From the NCBI RefSeq assembly GCF_014334095.1, contig NZ_CP060495.1, positions 2,069,001 to 2,133,000 on the forward strand: a stretch of 64,000 nucleotides of DNA. Direction: 5' to 3'. Of this stretch, positions 1-39,271 are shown one piece after another. Under the pieces are notes generated by a model, which made no database searches, was not told where the DNA came from, and worked only from the letters and a program-made list of their open reading frames with translations. Origin of the DNA: Novosphingopyxis iocasae. Its GTDB lineage: Bacteria > Pseudomonadota > Alphaproteobacteria > Sphingomonadales > Sphingomonadaceae. The stretch's first letter is position 1. Each line of letters begins with the position of its first letter. A program made the translations under genes and the position numbers.

Positions 1-622
1 CCAGCGCGTTGGTCGGGTTGGCCGGGCTTTCGAGGTAGACCACGGCCACTTTCGAGCCCTTGTCATCGGCGATTTTCTTCGCGCGGCCCAGCAGTTCCTT
101 GACCTCCTCGTTCGATGCGGTGGCCGGGAAATCGAGGAAGGTGATGCCGAACTTGGCGAGGATTTTCGCCACCATCGTCTCGGTCGCCGCGTAGAGCGGG
201 CCGGAATGGACGATCACGTCGTTTTGGCTGGCGAGCGCCAGCATGGTGGTGGCGATCGCGCTCATGCCGCTGGAGAAGACCAGCGCATCCTCCGACTCTT
301 CCCAAACGCTCAGGCGATCTTCGACGATCTCCTGATTGGGGTTGTTGAAGCGCGAATAGACCAGGCCCTCGGCGCCGCCGGGGCGCTTGCCGGTAATGCC
401 TTCGAAATGGCGCTTGCCCGCCGCCGCGCTTTCGAACGCGAAGGTGGAGGTGAGGAAGATCGGCGCCTTCAGCGAGCCTTCGGACAGCTTGGGATCGAAG
501 CCGTGGCCCATCATCAGCGTGGAGGGCTTCAGCTTGCGGCCGCCAATCTCCTTCACATCGGGCTTGGGGCGGCGGCGCGGCGTCATGGTGCCGAGCGGTG
601 GGTTCTCTTCGGATGTGCTCAT
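1..622 (-). CDS. Cystathionine gamma-synthase/lyase family PLP enzyme (partial)
   Basis: The reverse strand is open from an ATG at 622 to the window edge, giving the first 207 residues. The protein starts MSTSEENPPLG. Family landmarks are the substrate/PLP loop YSRFNNPN and the cofactor-phosphate motif FSSGMSAIAT, followed by YLESPANPTN. These belong to the Cys/Met-metabolism PLP family (fold type I), whose members replace or eliminate the gamma substituent of homoserine esters, cystathionine or methionine. The catalytic lysine lies beyond the edge, so the exact reaction cannot be settled; biosynthetic and degradative members look alike here. AGGAAGG lies 7 nt before the ATG and can be sequestered in a pseudoknot, which fits feedback control of a sulfur amino acid gene. 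Confidence 0.85.
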   Translation of the reverse strand, partial: MSTSEENPPLGTMTPRRRPKPDVKEIGGRKLKPSTLMMGHGFDPKLSEGSLKAPIFLTSTFAFESAAAGKRHFEGITGKRPGGAEGLVYSRFNNPNQEIVEDRLSVWEESEDALVFSSGMSAIATTMLALASQNDVIVHSGPLYAATETMVAKILAKFGITFLDFPATASNEEVKELLGRAKKIADDKGSKVAVVYLESPANPTNAL

Positions 623-629
623 GGAATGT

Positions 630-664
630 CCTTCCTGTCGTCACGCTCCCAGGAAGGCGGGAGC
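630..664 (-). promoter_or_regulatory. Candidate H-type pseudoknot enclosing the Shine-Dalgarno site
   Basis: Read on the minus strand, GCTCCC (664-659) pairs with GGGAGC (650-645). The loop between them carries CCTTCCT (657-651), which is perfectly complementary to the downstream AGGAAGG (636-630), the ribosome binding site of the PLP enzyme. Stem 1 has 6 bp, stem 2 has 7 bp, loop 1 is 1 nt, there is no nucleotide between the stems, and the last loop is 8 nt. This is the classical geometry of an H-type pseudoknot. Folding would hide the ribosome binding site. SAM-II, SAM-V and preQ1 riboswitches use this logic, but I do not see the SAM-II consensus. The ligand, if any, is unknown. Confidence 0.5.
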
Positions 665-691
665 TGTTCTGCTGCCGGGCGGGGCACGGCG

Positions 692-712
692 CCTTCTAAC
701 CTCCGCAGAAGG
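692..712 (-). promoter_or_regulatory. Upstream hairpin in the same leader
   Basis: CCTTCT (712-707) pairs with AGAAGG (697-692) around a 9-nt loop. It lies 28 nt upstream of the candidate pseudoknot in the leader of the PLP enzyme. Its loop and flanks are GC-rich. It may be part of a larger sensor domain or simply a stable stem. Confidence 0.3.
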
Positions 713-766
713 GCATCTCCGCCGCCGACGTCGTCTCGGTCCGGCCGCGGGGCCGGTGATAGGCCC

Positions 767-5551: not shown

Positions 5552-6576
5552 CGCCGCGCGCGCATCGCCACCAGCAGGCCCAGCATCGCGATCCCGCCGC
5601 CCGCCGCGGCCAGAGGAGACCAACGATAGCCCTCGAACAGGGTGGACAGCGCCATCGCCACCACCGGCACGAGCACGCTGTTATACGCCGCCTTGCCCGG
5701 GCCGATGGCGCGCACGATCCCGAAATAGAGCGGGAAGGTGACGACTGAACCCAGCAGCCCGAGATACAGGATGCCGAAGAGATAGGCCGGACGCGGATCG
5801 ATCACCGGCGGGCCGAAGCTGACAAAGGCGACGGCGGCGTTGAACAGCACGCCATAGCCCATCGCCCAGGTGAGCAAAGTCAGCAGCGGCAGCGCCTGCA
5901 CCCGCTTGGCCGCCTGCAGCACATTGGCGAAGGAGGCGGAAAGAATGCCGCCGACGGTGAGCAGAATGCCGAACGCCACGTCCCGCCCGCTCGCCGGCAT
6001 GGCGCGATATTCCTGCACGAACAACAGCGCCACGCCCAGGATCGCGATCCCCGTGCCGACGAAGAAGCTCGGCTCCAGCCGCCGCCCCAAAAATATCCGC
6101 CCGAACAGCGCGTTGGGCAGCATCAAGAGCGCAAAGGTGCTTGCAACCAGGCCGGAGGTCACGAACCGCTCGGCATTGTACACGAAGTTGAAATTCAGGA
6201 CGAACTGGCTCGCCCCCAGCATCAGCGCGATGGCGTGGGCGCGGGCGGGCAGCCGCAGCGGCTGACCGCGCACCCGCGCCAGCACCGCCATGCCGATCGC
6301 GGCGACGATGAAGCGATAGCAAACCGACCAGGTCGGCGGCACGGAGCTTAGCTGATCGCGGATCACGATCCACGTCCCGCCCCAGATCAGAGCCACCAGA
6401 ATGAACGGAAACAGGATGCGCGGGGTGAGGAGGGAGAGGTCCGCCTCTCCTCCCGAAACCGAAACTCGCCCCTGATCCGTTAGCCCTGAGCTTGTCGAAG
6501 GGCGTTTCTCGCTTGAGAGCCGTGCTTTGACAGGCTCAGCACTTACGGCTTTATTTTGACCGTCAAACGATGTCAC
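5548..6576 (-). CDS. DMT-superfamily transporter (EamA), N-terminus encoded by a repeat
   Basis: Two EamA domains with about ten hydrophobic helices begin at ILFPFILVALIWGG and make this a drug/metabolite-type exporter of unknown substrate. The frame opens with GTG at 6576, in a 4-nt GTGA overlap with the threonine aldolase stop, which suggests translational coupling. The first 45 or so residues are hydrophilic, and most are encoded by repeat copy 3 (6478-6548; peptide KRPSTSSGL). No ATG, GTG or TTG lies between the repeat and the first helix. Either the repeat is translated as an N-terminal tail or a non-standard start is used. A perfect 7-bp hairpin (6433-6450) follows the repeat. Confidence 0.85.
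   Translation of the reverse strand: MTSFDGQNKAVSAEPVKARLSSEKRPSTSSGLTDQGRVSVSGGEADLSLLTPRILFPFILVALIWGGTWIVIRDQLSSVPPTWSVCYRFIVAAIGMAVLARVRGQPLRLPARAHAIALMLGASQFVLNFNFVYNAERFVTSGLVASTFALLMLPNALFGRIFLGRRLEPSFFVGTGIAILGVALLFVQEYRAMPASGRDVAFGILLTVGGILSASFANVLQAAKRVQALPLLTLLTWAMGYGVLFNAAVAFVSFGPPVIDPRPAYLFGILYLGLLGSVVTFPLYFGIVRAIGPGKAAYNSVLVPVVAMALSTLFEGYRWSPLAAAGGGIAMLGLLVAMRARR
6433..6450 (-). other. Stable hairpin inside the transporter 5' region
   Basis: On the minus strand GGAGAGG and CCTCTCC form a perfect 7-bp stem closed by the tetraloop CGGA, with GGAGG immediately upstream. It sits between the repeat-encoded tail and the first membrane helix. A structured SD-like element here suggests the region was once non-coding. 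Confidence 0.4.
6478..6548. repeat. Dispersed inverted repeat, copy 3 (inside a coding frame)
   Basis: CCGTTAGCCCTGAGCTTGTC opens the left arm and the right arm ends CAGGCTCAGCACTTACGG. The copy is 71 bp, the same length as copy 7. It lies in frame within the 5' end of the EamA transporter gene. Confidence 0.85.
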
Positions 6577-7568: not shown

Positions 7569-7979
7569 GGGCGGCGCTGTAGGAGTTCGCGCCGATCTGG
7601 GGAAGGAGGGAATGCGCGCAAATCGCATACCGATCCAATGCCGATGCGACGCTGCCTTAACCCTCGAACCAAGCCGGTAGTTCTTCGAACCGCGCCGGTA
7701 GCCTTTTCAATCAAGCCCGTAGCCCTGAGCTTGTCGAAGGGCGCTTATCGTTCGAGAGCGGCTCGTGACCGAGAGACGTCCTTCGACAAGCTCAGGACTT
7801 ACGGTCTTTGACTTCGGACAGTGATATTGGACCTGAATCCATCCGCTTCGGCGGACAGCCTTCACCCTACATCGCGCTTCAAGCTGGCCCGCCAGCCGAA
7901 GCCCGAAGGGCGCCCCTTCGCTTTGCTCGGGATTTCCGCCGCGAAAACCATCCCCCGGATGGTTTTCAGCAGGCGGAAA
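7569..7979. other. Intergenic region of about 410 bp
   Basis: This stretch lies between the threonine aldolase start and tRNA-Thr. It contains repeat copy 4 (7717-7804). The reading frames crossing it have the composition of translated repeat (for example ALSLSKG) and no recognisable domain. I see no gene. Confidence 0.65.
7717..7804. repeat. Dispersed inverted repeat, copy 4
   Basis: The arms are CCGTAGCCCTGAGCTTGTCG and, inverted, CGACAAGCTCAGGACTTACGG. The 88-bp copy shares the GAGAGACGTC core with copy 1. Confidence 0.88.
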
Positions 7980-29776: not shown

Positions 29777-29847
29777 CCGTAAGTGCTGAGCTTGTCGAAG
29801 CACGTCTCTCGTTCGAGAAACGCCTTTCGACAAGCTCAAGGCTACGG
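29777..29847. repeat. Dispersed inverted repeat, copy 7
   Basis: CCGTAAGTGCTGAGCTTGTC opens the left arm, and the right arm ends CGACAAGCTCAAGGCTACGG. The centre TCTCGTTCGAGAAACG also pairs with itself. The copy is 71 bp, the same length as copy 3, and lies after purH where a terminator would be expected. Confidence 0.88.
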
Positions 29848-39193: not shown

Positions 39194-39271
39194 CCGTTCG
39201 GGCTGAGCGTATCGAAGCCTCGTACTTTATCGCAACCCGGTGCGGCCCTTCGACAGGCTCAGGATAAACGG
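39194..39271. repeat. Dispersed inverted repeat, copy 8
   Basis: The left arm is CCGTTCGGGCTGAGCGTATC and the right arm CGACAGGCTCAGGATAAACGG. Both have drifted from the consensus but remain inverted and similarly spaced. It fills the gap between the convergent queG and lipoprotein genes. Confidence 0.75.

Follow-up and report, generated by a model that had tools for sequence, protein, structure and literature searches.

SAM-II (SAM_alpha, RF00521) is associated with methionine-pathway genes in alphaproteobacteria and forms an H-type pseudoknot that includes the Shine-Dalgarno (SD) region, and SAM-V (RF01826) and SAM/SAH (RF01727) are small pseudoknots that hide the SD. The leader described here precedes a PLP-enzyme gene at one edge of the window (the whole 64,000-nucleotide stretch of Novosphingopyxis iocasae DNA that was analysed). 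It shares with SAM-II the methionine-pathway type of gene, the alphaproteobacterial host and an SD-containing H-type pseudoknot, and the working logic that we propose for it is that of SD-sequestering riboswitches. Comparison of the leader sequences suggests that this conserved folded RNA probably switches translation of the gene in many sphingomonads. The element is about 95 nt long and has the following parts.

630-725, minus strand: whole conserved leader element, from P0 to the SD (match to covariance model R2 at 644-725, plus the SD from the sequence)
720-723, minus strand: P0 5' strand GGCG, pairing with 691-688 (sequence; cross-pairing)
713-719, minus strand: unpaired strand GAGATGC, conserved across the family as GAGADGC (base frequencies in 142 distinct leaders)
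708-712, minus strand: P1 5' strand CCTTC (covariation)
697-707, minus strand: loop 1, TGCGGAGGTTA, 11 nt, whose GGAGGT (704-699) is complementary to loop 2
692-696, minus strand: P1 3' strand GAAGG (covariation)
688-691, minus strand: P0 3' strand CGCC (sequence; cross-pairing)
659-664, minus strand: P2 5' strand GCTCCC, 6/6 pairs with 650-645 (covariation)
651-658, minus strand: loop 2, GCCTTCCT, an internal anti-SD (of 162 distinct leaders, 155 have GCCTTCCT and the other 7 GCCTCCCT)
645-650, minus strand: P2 3' strand GGGAGC (covariation)
630-636, minus strand: SD AGGAAGG, the 3' strand of the putative pseudoknot helix P3 (AGGAAGG count in motif leaders)
2-622, minus strand: 5' part of the PLP-enzyme gene presumably regulated by the element (PRK07049/NF005455 family, encoding 443 aa in the full genome), start codon 622-620

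The original prediction of a pseudoknot at this site was borne out in its details: the 6-bp stem 664-659/650-645 is present as GCTCCC/GGGAGC with 6/6 pairs, CCTTCCT in its loop (657-651) is the exact reverse complement of the entire ribosome binding site AGGAAGG (636-630; 7/7 on the minus strand), and the segments joining the strands measure 1, 0 and 8 nt. The hairpin that it placed upstream, at 692-712, also exists (CCTTC 712-708 with GAAGG 696-692, around an 11-nt loop). This hairpin, suggested there as a possible added sensor, belongs to the same RNA and is no optional extra, being among the most conserved parts of the element.

Conservation and covariation of the leader RNA

The element in the window exceeds chance expectation. 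Covariance model R2, built from 58 other leaders with the window excluded, scored 74.7 bits (E 4.4e-14) for minus-strand positions 644-725, and its second-best match within the window had an E of 0.84. In alignment A3 (58 diverse leaders, window again excluded), P1, P2 and the loop-loop pairing together comprised 97.4% standard pairs, with 56 cells changed on both sides versus 13.9 in shuffles; covariation was 0.229 versus 0.128 (0/500 shuffles), and the signal was gone when the partners were slid. A home-made tree-based test in the manner of R-scape (coding-sequence tree, 157 of 162 leaders, 40 null alignments) ranked three pairs of P1 and one of P2 higher than all 40 nulls; four other pairs at E 0 were discounted because they lie in the poorly aligned SD/start-codon region. 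Cross-pairing of 107 representatives, not corrected for descent, gave z values of -15.4 for P1, -12.2 for P2, -5.5 for P0 and -3.8 for loop 2 with the SD region (representatives were less than 80% identical, and 107 of 112 were used, five having no recognisable AGADGC). The P0 helix is likely but less certain; it was not significant in the tree-based test, where its best pair had an E of 0.8.

Conservation and covariation of the stems in orthologous leaders, on which the original prediction had staked itself, were thus found for P1 and P2, and they extend to the tree-based null. In these two stems the leader has the conserved, covarying structure expected of a riboswitch. Outside the helices, unpaired bases are nearly invariant on the flanks of loop 1 and in the GAGADG strand, according to base frequencies in the 142 distinct leaders. 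A promoter 5' of loop 1 is only suggestive: the best -10 sites cluster about 40 nt 5' of loop 1 in some leaders, and -10/promoter matches of at least 8/12 occurred in 44% of 112 representatives versus 19% when shuffled; matches of at least 9/12 were not enriched in the same set (1.8% versus 2.7%).

Candidate partners of loop 2

The SD of these genes is itself distinctive. Of 142 distinct motif leaders, 95 had AGGAAGG in the SD region, against none of 368 other genes at the same loci, and loop 2 could form 7/7 pairs with its own SD, within 55 nt, in 111 of 162 leaders and at least 6/7 in 148. Of the two outputs sought in a riboswitch, SD sequestration or a terminator, the leader offers the former as a potential loop 2:SD pairing. 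P3 has fewer than 6/7 pairs in 14 of the 162 leaders (for instance, 4 in L124 and 5 in L137), including six of the seven with loop 2 GCCUCCCU; these seven fall under two genus labels, six under g48 and one under g103 (L221, genome G532). Loop conservation is biased in the full set because part of the loci were selected by the exact loop pattern. The subset found by the model alone, which over-samples weak hits, contains 51 distinct leaders; 29 of them could form P3 with 7/7 pairs and 43 with 6 or more (1.5% and 22% when shuffled), GGAGGU was kept in 51/51, and loop 2 was GCCUUCCU in 44 and GCCUCCCU in 7. By eye, eight leaders (L017, L108, L112, L114, L153, L165, L176 and L186) carry an extra hairpin between P2 and the SD. 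The SD of these eight, AGGGAGG or AGGAGGG, lies about 40 nt further on and can still pair 7/7 with loop 2, with one G-U.

Our comparison points to a second partner for the same loop, which had not been predicted. Loop 1 reads UGCGGAGGUUA in 156 of the 162 distinct leaders, and its GGAGGU matches GCCUUC of loop 2 with 6/6 standard pairs in all 162; the seven leaders with GCCUCC in loop 2 replace a G-U with a G-C in this pairing, and three with a shortened loop 1 (UUGGAGGUA) retain GGAGGU. Since the loop 1 and SD pairings would use the same bases of loop 2, they are mutually exclusive, and loop 2 appears to have two competing partners, with estimated duplex energies of -6.1 kcal/mol for loop 1:loop 2 and -9.5 kcal/mol for SD:loop 2. 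Covariation cannot prove P3 or the loop-loop pairing, because loop 2 hardly varies; for the kissing pairing, loop 1 too is near-invariant. The conservation of loop 1 could instead reflect ligand binding.

When folding was predicted pseudoknot-free, P1 and P2 were both present in 47 of 162 leaders, and a long P1:P2 hairpin was more stable in 143; for the leader in the window the order was reversed, the two separate hairpins (-23.1) being more stable than the long one (-21.9). As a conserved structure the long hairpin was rejected: it showed no covariation (0.092 versus 0.094 shuffled), and a leader's own arms paired no better than cross-paired arms (z +2.4). The outer arms do not covary, so the long hairpin is at most an extension of the kissing state, and it may represent an extended ON state.

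Distribution and the downstream gene

A protein search over 98 relatives yielded 30 orthologue loci, of which 15 carry the common block GATGCGTTCC-TGCGGAGGTTA-GGAACG ... GCTCCTGCCTTCCTGGGAGC, in most cases with an AGGAAGG-like site after it; the element is absent from the other 15, about half. Covariance model R1, built from the 15 loci with the block, found matches in 132 of the 397 family genomes searched at E <= 0.01 and in 125 of 397 at E <= 4.8e-5, each of the 125 strong matches being one copy per genome. An order-wide search with R1 matched 133 of 396 genomes at E <= 0.01, a class-wide search 3 of 385 and a phylum-wide search with a second model 5 of 299 (one weak), all within Sphingomonadaceae. 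Matches are therefore confined to one family in the genomes searched, under the stricter filters of these large searches, with which some weak matches were lost. The matches listed (80 of at least 120 stretches) belong to Erythrobacter, Qipengyuania, Aurantiacibacter, Parerythrobacter, Citromicrobium, Tsuneonella, Pontixanthobacter and others, with some Novosphingobium, Sphingorhabdus and Sphingomonas records among them.

The element is closely linked to one gene. We scanned 187 loci, 172 with the motif (142 distinct leaders) and 15 orthologue loci without it, and the PRK07049-type gene lay directly downstream in all 172 motif-bearing loci. Among a further 40 fetched hits, mostly weaker, the gene was downstream in 32 and missing in 8. 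These eight, which are all the fetched hits at E 3e-4 to 0.01 (hits in G167 and G595 and the second in G053 were not fetched), look like unrelated palindromes and were excluded from later sets, leaving 162 distinct leaders. Palindrome pairs of the pattern GCTCCTGCGAAGGCAGGAGC...GGCTCCTGCCTTCGCAGGAGC, which resemble P1 and P2, were seen in L204-L207 and L224-L227; one arm of this pattern occurs 29 times in genome G028 and 8 times in G005.

In the one other genome of the window's genus that was searched, the orthologue (L002) is 89% identical over 207 aa and its leader does not carry the element, which implies that the element was lost or replaced within the genus. The 15 orthologue loci without the element contained no Rfam family at gathering scores and no convincing weak copy; their best match (E 0.08) lies inside a coding region, and the sole match placed in a leader, L015 1356-1442, has an E of 7.6.

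The PLP-enzyme gene is cut by the window edge alone, and its open reading frame in the genome encodes 443 aa. The original prediction had called it a methionine/cysteine PLP enzyme resembling cystathionine gamma-synthase. A PLP enzyme of cysteine/methionine metabolism it is; however, the protein scores 669 bits against NF005455 ("cystathionine gamma-synthase family protein" PRK07049; cut-off 504), a family of uncertain substrate, and falls below the cut-off of cystathionine gamma-synthase proper. In sequence, the solved structures nearest to it are 5ijg and 7swh, followed by methionine gamma-lyases. Neighbouring genes give no hint of a ligand, since they differ among the three loci compared (DUF547, Na/sulfate symporter, short-chain dehydrogenase, laccase-type Cu-oxidase_4 and MlaE), and one target gene in one bacterial family offers little hint either.

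Two further repeats were noted in the window. CTGAGCTTGTCGAAG is an interspersed palindromic repeat that recurs 14 times (with at most 2 mismatches, against 0.11 copies expected), frequently in inverted pairs, at 1061-1075, 1137-1151, 1972-1986, 2029-2043, 6486-6539, 7725-7795, 29786-29839, 39203-39262 and other positions. A second repeat-like palindrome, CATTGCGAGGAGC..GACGCGGCAATG, lies at 958-989 between the leader and the next gene and has one copy in the window.

Proposed mechanism, alternatives and known systems

The structure of the leader and its potential to pair with the SD are well supported by sequence comparison; from these we infer the switching, its direction and the ligand. We propose that the leader acts in cis on translation of its own PLP-enzyme mRNA. 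In the OFF state the P3 pseudoknot would hide the SD, and in the ON state loop 1 would capture loop 2 by kissing, perhaps with further zipping, and free the SD. A signal read by P0/P1 would set the balance between the two states. Because many unpaired bases are nearly invariant and the single target is a cysteine/methionine enzyme, the most likely signal is a metabolite, which would be one of methionine/cysteine metabolism. The element is probably a new single-gene translational switch of an undescribed riboswitch class, and the riboswitch reading is plausible but unproven. For the whole reading, comprising the cis leader, P3 as OFF, loop 1 capture as ON, a metabolite signal and an undescribed class, our confidence is about evenly balanced. 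More tentative is the claim of a riboswitch class that is new in its design, with an anti-SD loop traded between a ligand-binding hairpin loop (kissing, ON) and the SD (pseudoknot, OFF), upstream of a methionine/cysteine PLP enzyme in a family whose searched genomes lack SAM-II; this we regard as possible rather than expected.

The same cis leader might instead respond to a trans-acting factor, either a small RNA or an RNA-binding protein, that lands on loop 1 (GGAGG) or loop 2 (CCUUCC), which we consider unlikely. The two loops, being short, exposed and almost invariant, look as a binding site should, but the conserved bases reach into the GAGADG strand. CsrA binds GGA loops; it was absent from 59 of 59 relatives, and a CsrA-controlled leader was rejected (0/59 genomes, with the control matched in 3 of 14).

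Rather less probable is a constitutive leader whose fold fixes the translation level or mRNA stability and whose loop 1, a better ribosome-binding sequence than the SD of the gene itself, acts as a standby or decoy site for ribosomes. Estimated pairing to the 16S tail is -10.7 kcal/mol for CGGAGGUU versus -5.4 kcal/mol for AGGAAGG, yet such a leader would leave unexplained both the conservation of loop 2 with its matched SD and the invariant bases flanking GGAGG.

It is very improbable that the leader is a diverged SAM-II, SAM-V or SAM/SAH riboswitch, although the kind of gene and the logic of an SD-hiding pseudoknot are the same. Rfam 15 at gathering scores found one tRNA in the window and nothing at the leader. 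Within 500-1100 of the window, up to E 10, unrelated families gave two matches at chance level, and all that six homologous loci yielded up to E 1 was eukaryotic microRNA and snoRNA families elsewhere. No covariance-model match to RF00521 (SAM-II), RF01826 (SAM-V) or RF01727 (SAM/SAH) was found in the window leader or the six homologous loci, so the original prediction, which had already seen no SAM-II consensus and would have yielded to a known family, stands on this point. SAM-II was not found in any of 24 family genomes searched and was above cut-off in 2 of 16 other genomes of the order. Genome searches for SAM-V (own genome only), SAM/SAH and SAH were empty, as were their positive controls, so these negatives carry little weight. 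Table 1 of PMC4239095 gives SahR alone, and no SAM/SAH riboswitch, for its 7 Sphingomonadales genomes.

A leader peptide in P1, MRSCGG-stop (MPFCGG-stop in the window), with attenuation at its cysteine codon, is hardly credible: ATG CGT TCC TGC GGA GGT TAG can be read in many leaders, the window's version included, but the start codon is not conserved (the middle base of the would-be ATG is T in 43%, G in 40% and A in 15% of 142 leaders), and the third codon positions of Gly-Gly-stop are fixed, which indicates a constraint on RNA rather than on a peptide. Where the leader has ATG, at 687-707 on the minus strand of the window and at the matching place elsewhere, the short reading frame is M-x-x-C-G-G-stop. 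Support is also weak for a REP-like mobile palindrome pair, located by chance or domesticated, an origin that we take to be most improbable: the 8 weakest fetched model hits (E 3e-4 to 0.01) are palindrome pairs resembling P1 and P2, but the palindrome pattern occurs in just 3 of 59 relatives and nowhere in the window at up to 3 mismatches, and the element occurs once per genome and accompanies a single gene.

If the riboswitch reading is true, the element would represent a new class of SD-controlling RNA, at about 95 nt small enough for structural work, and its single target would reduce the candidate metabolites to a short list. Its hosts include named bacteria in culture, among them Erythrobacter and Qipengyuania, and the near-invariance of loop 1, together with its complementarity to loop 2, makes for a concrete switching proposal. 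Even without any ligand, the element would be a sharply defined orphan regulator.

The leader element forms a new family, with no match in Rfam 15 and no description in the open-licence PMC passages searched (PMC4239095, PMC8632094 and PMC11109978 among them). As described in PMC8632094, the pnuC (SRC-10-1) motif resembles it as an orphan riboswitch candidate with a possible pseudoknot pairing to the ribosome binding site, but that motif belongs to an NAD-metabolism gene and has another structure, a distinction drawn from its description and not its sequence. The metXZ RNA element of betaproteobacteria, according to PMC4239095, is likewise a candidate RNA regulator 5' of metX or metZ, but it has a terminator-antiterminator mechanism and belongs to another bacterial class. 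SAM-V and SAM/SAH share with our leader the small pseudoknot that would hide the SD, and differ in that their Rfam models do not match it. Compared with SAM-II, whose model does not match either, the leader element carries a second hairpin, with a nearly invariant loop, 5' of the pseudoknot.
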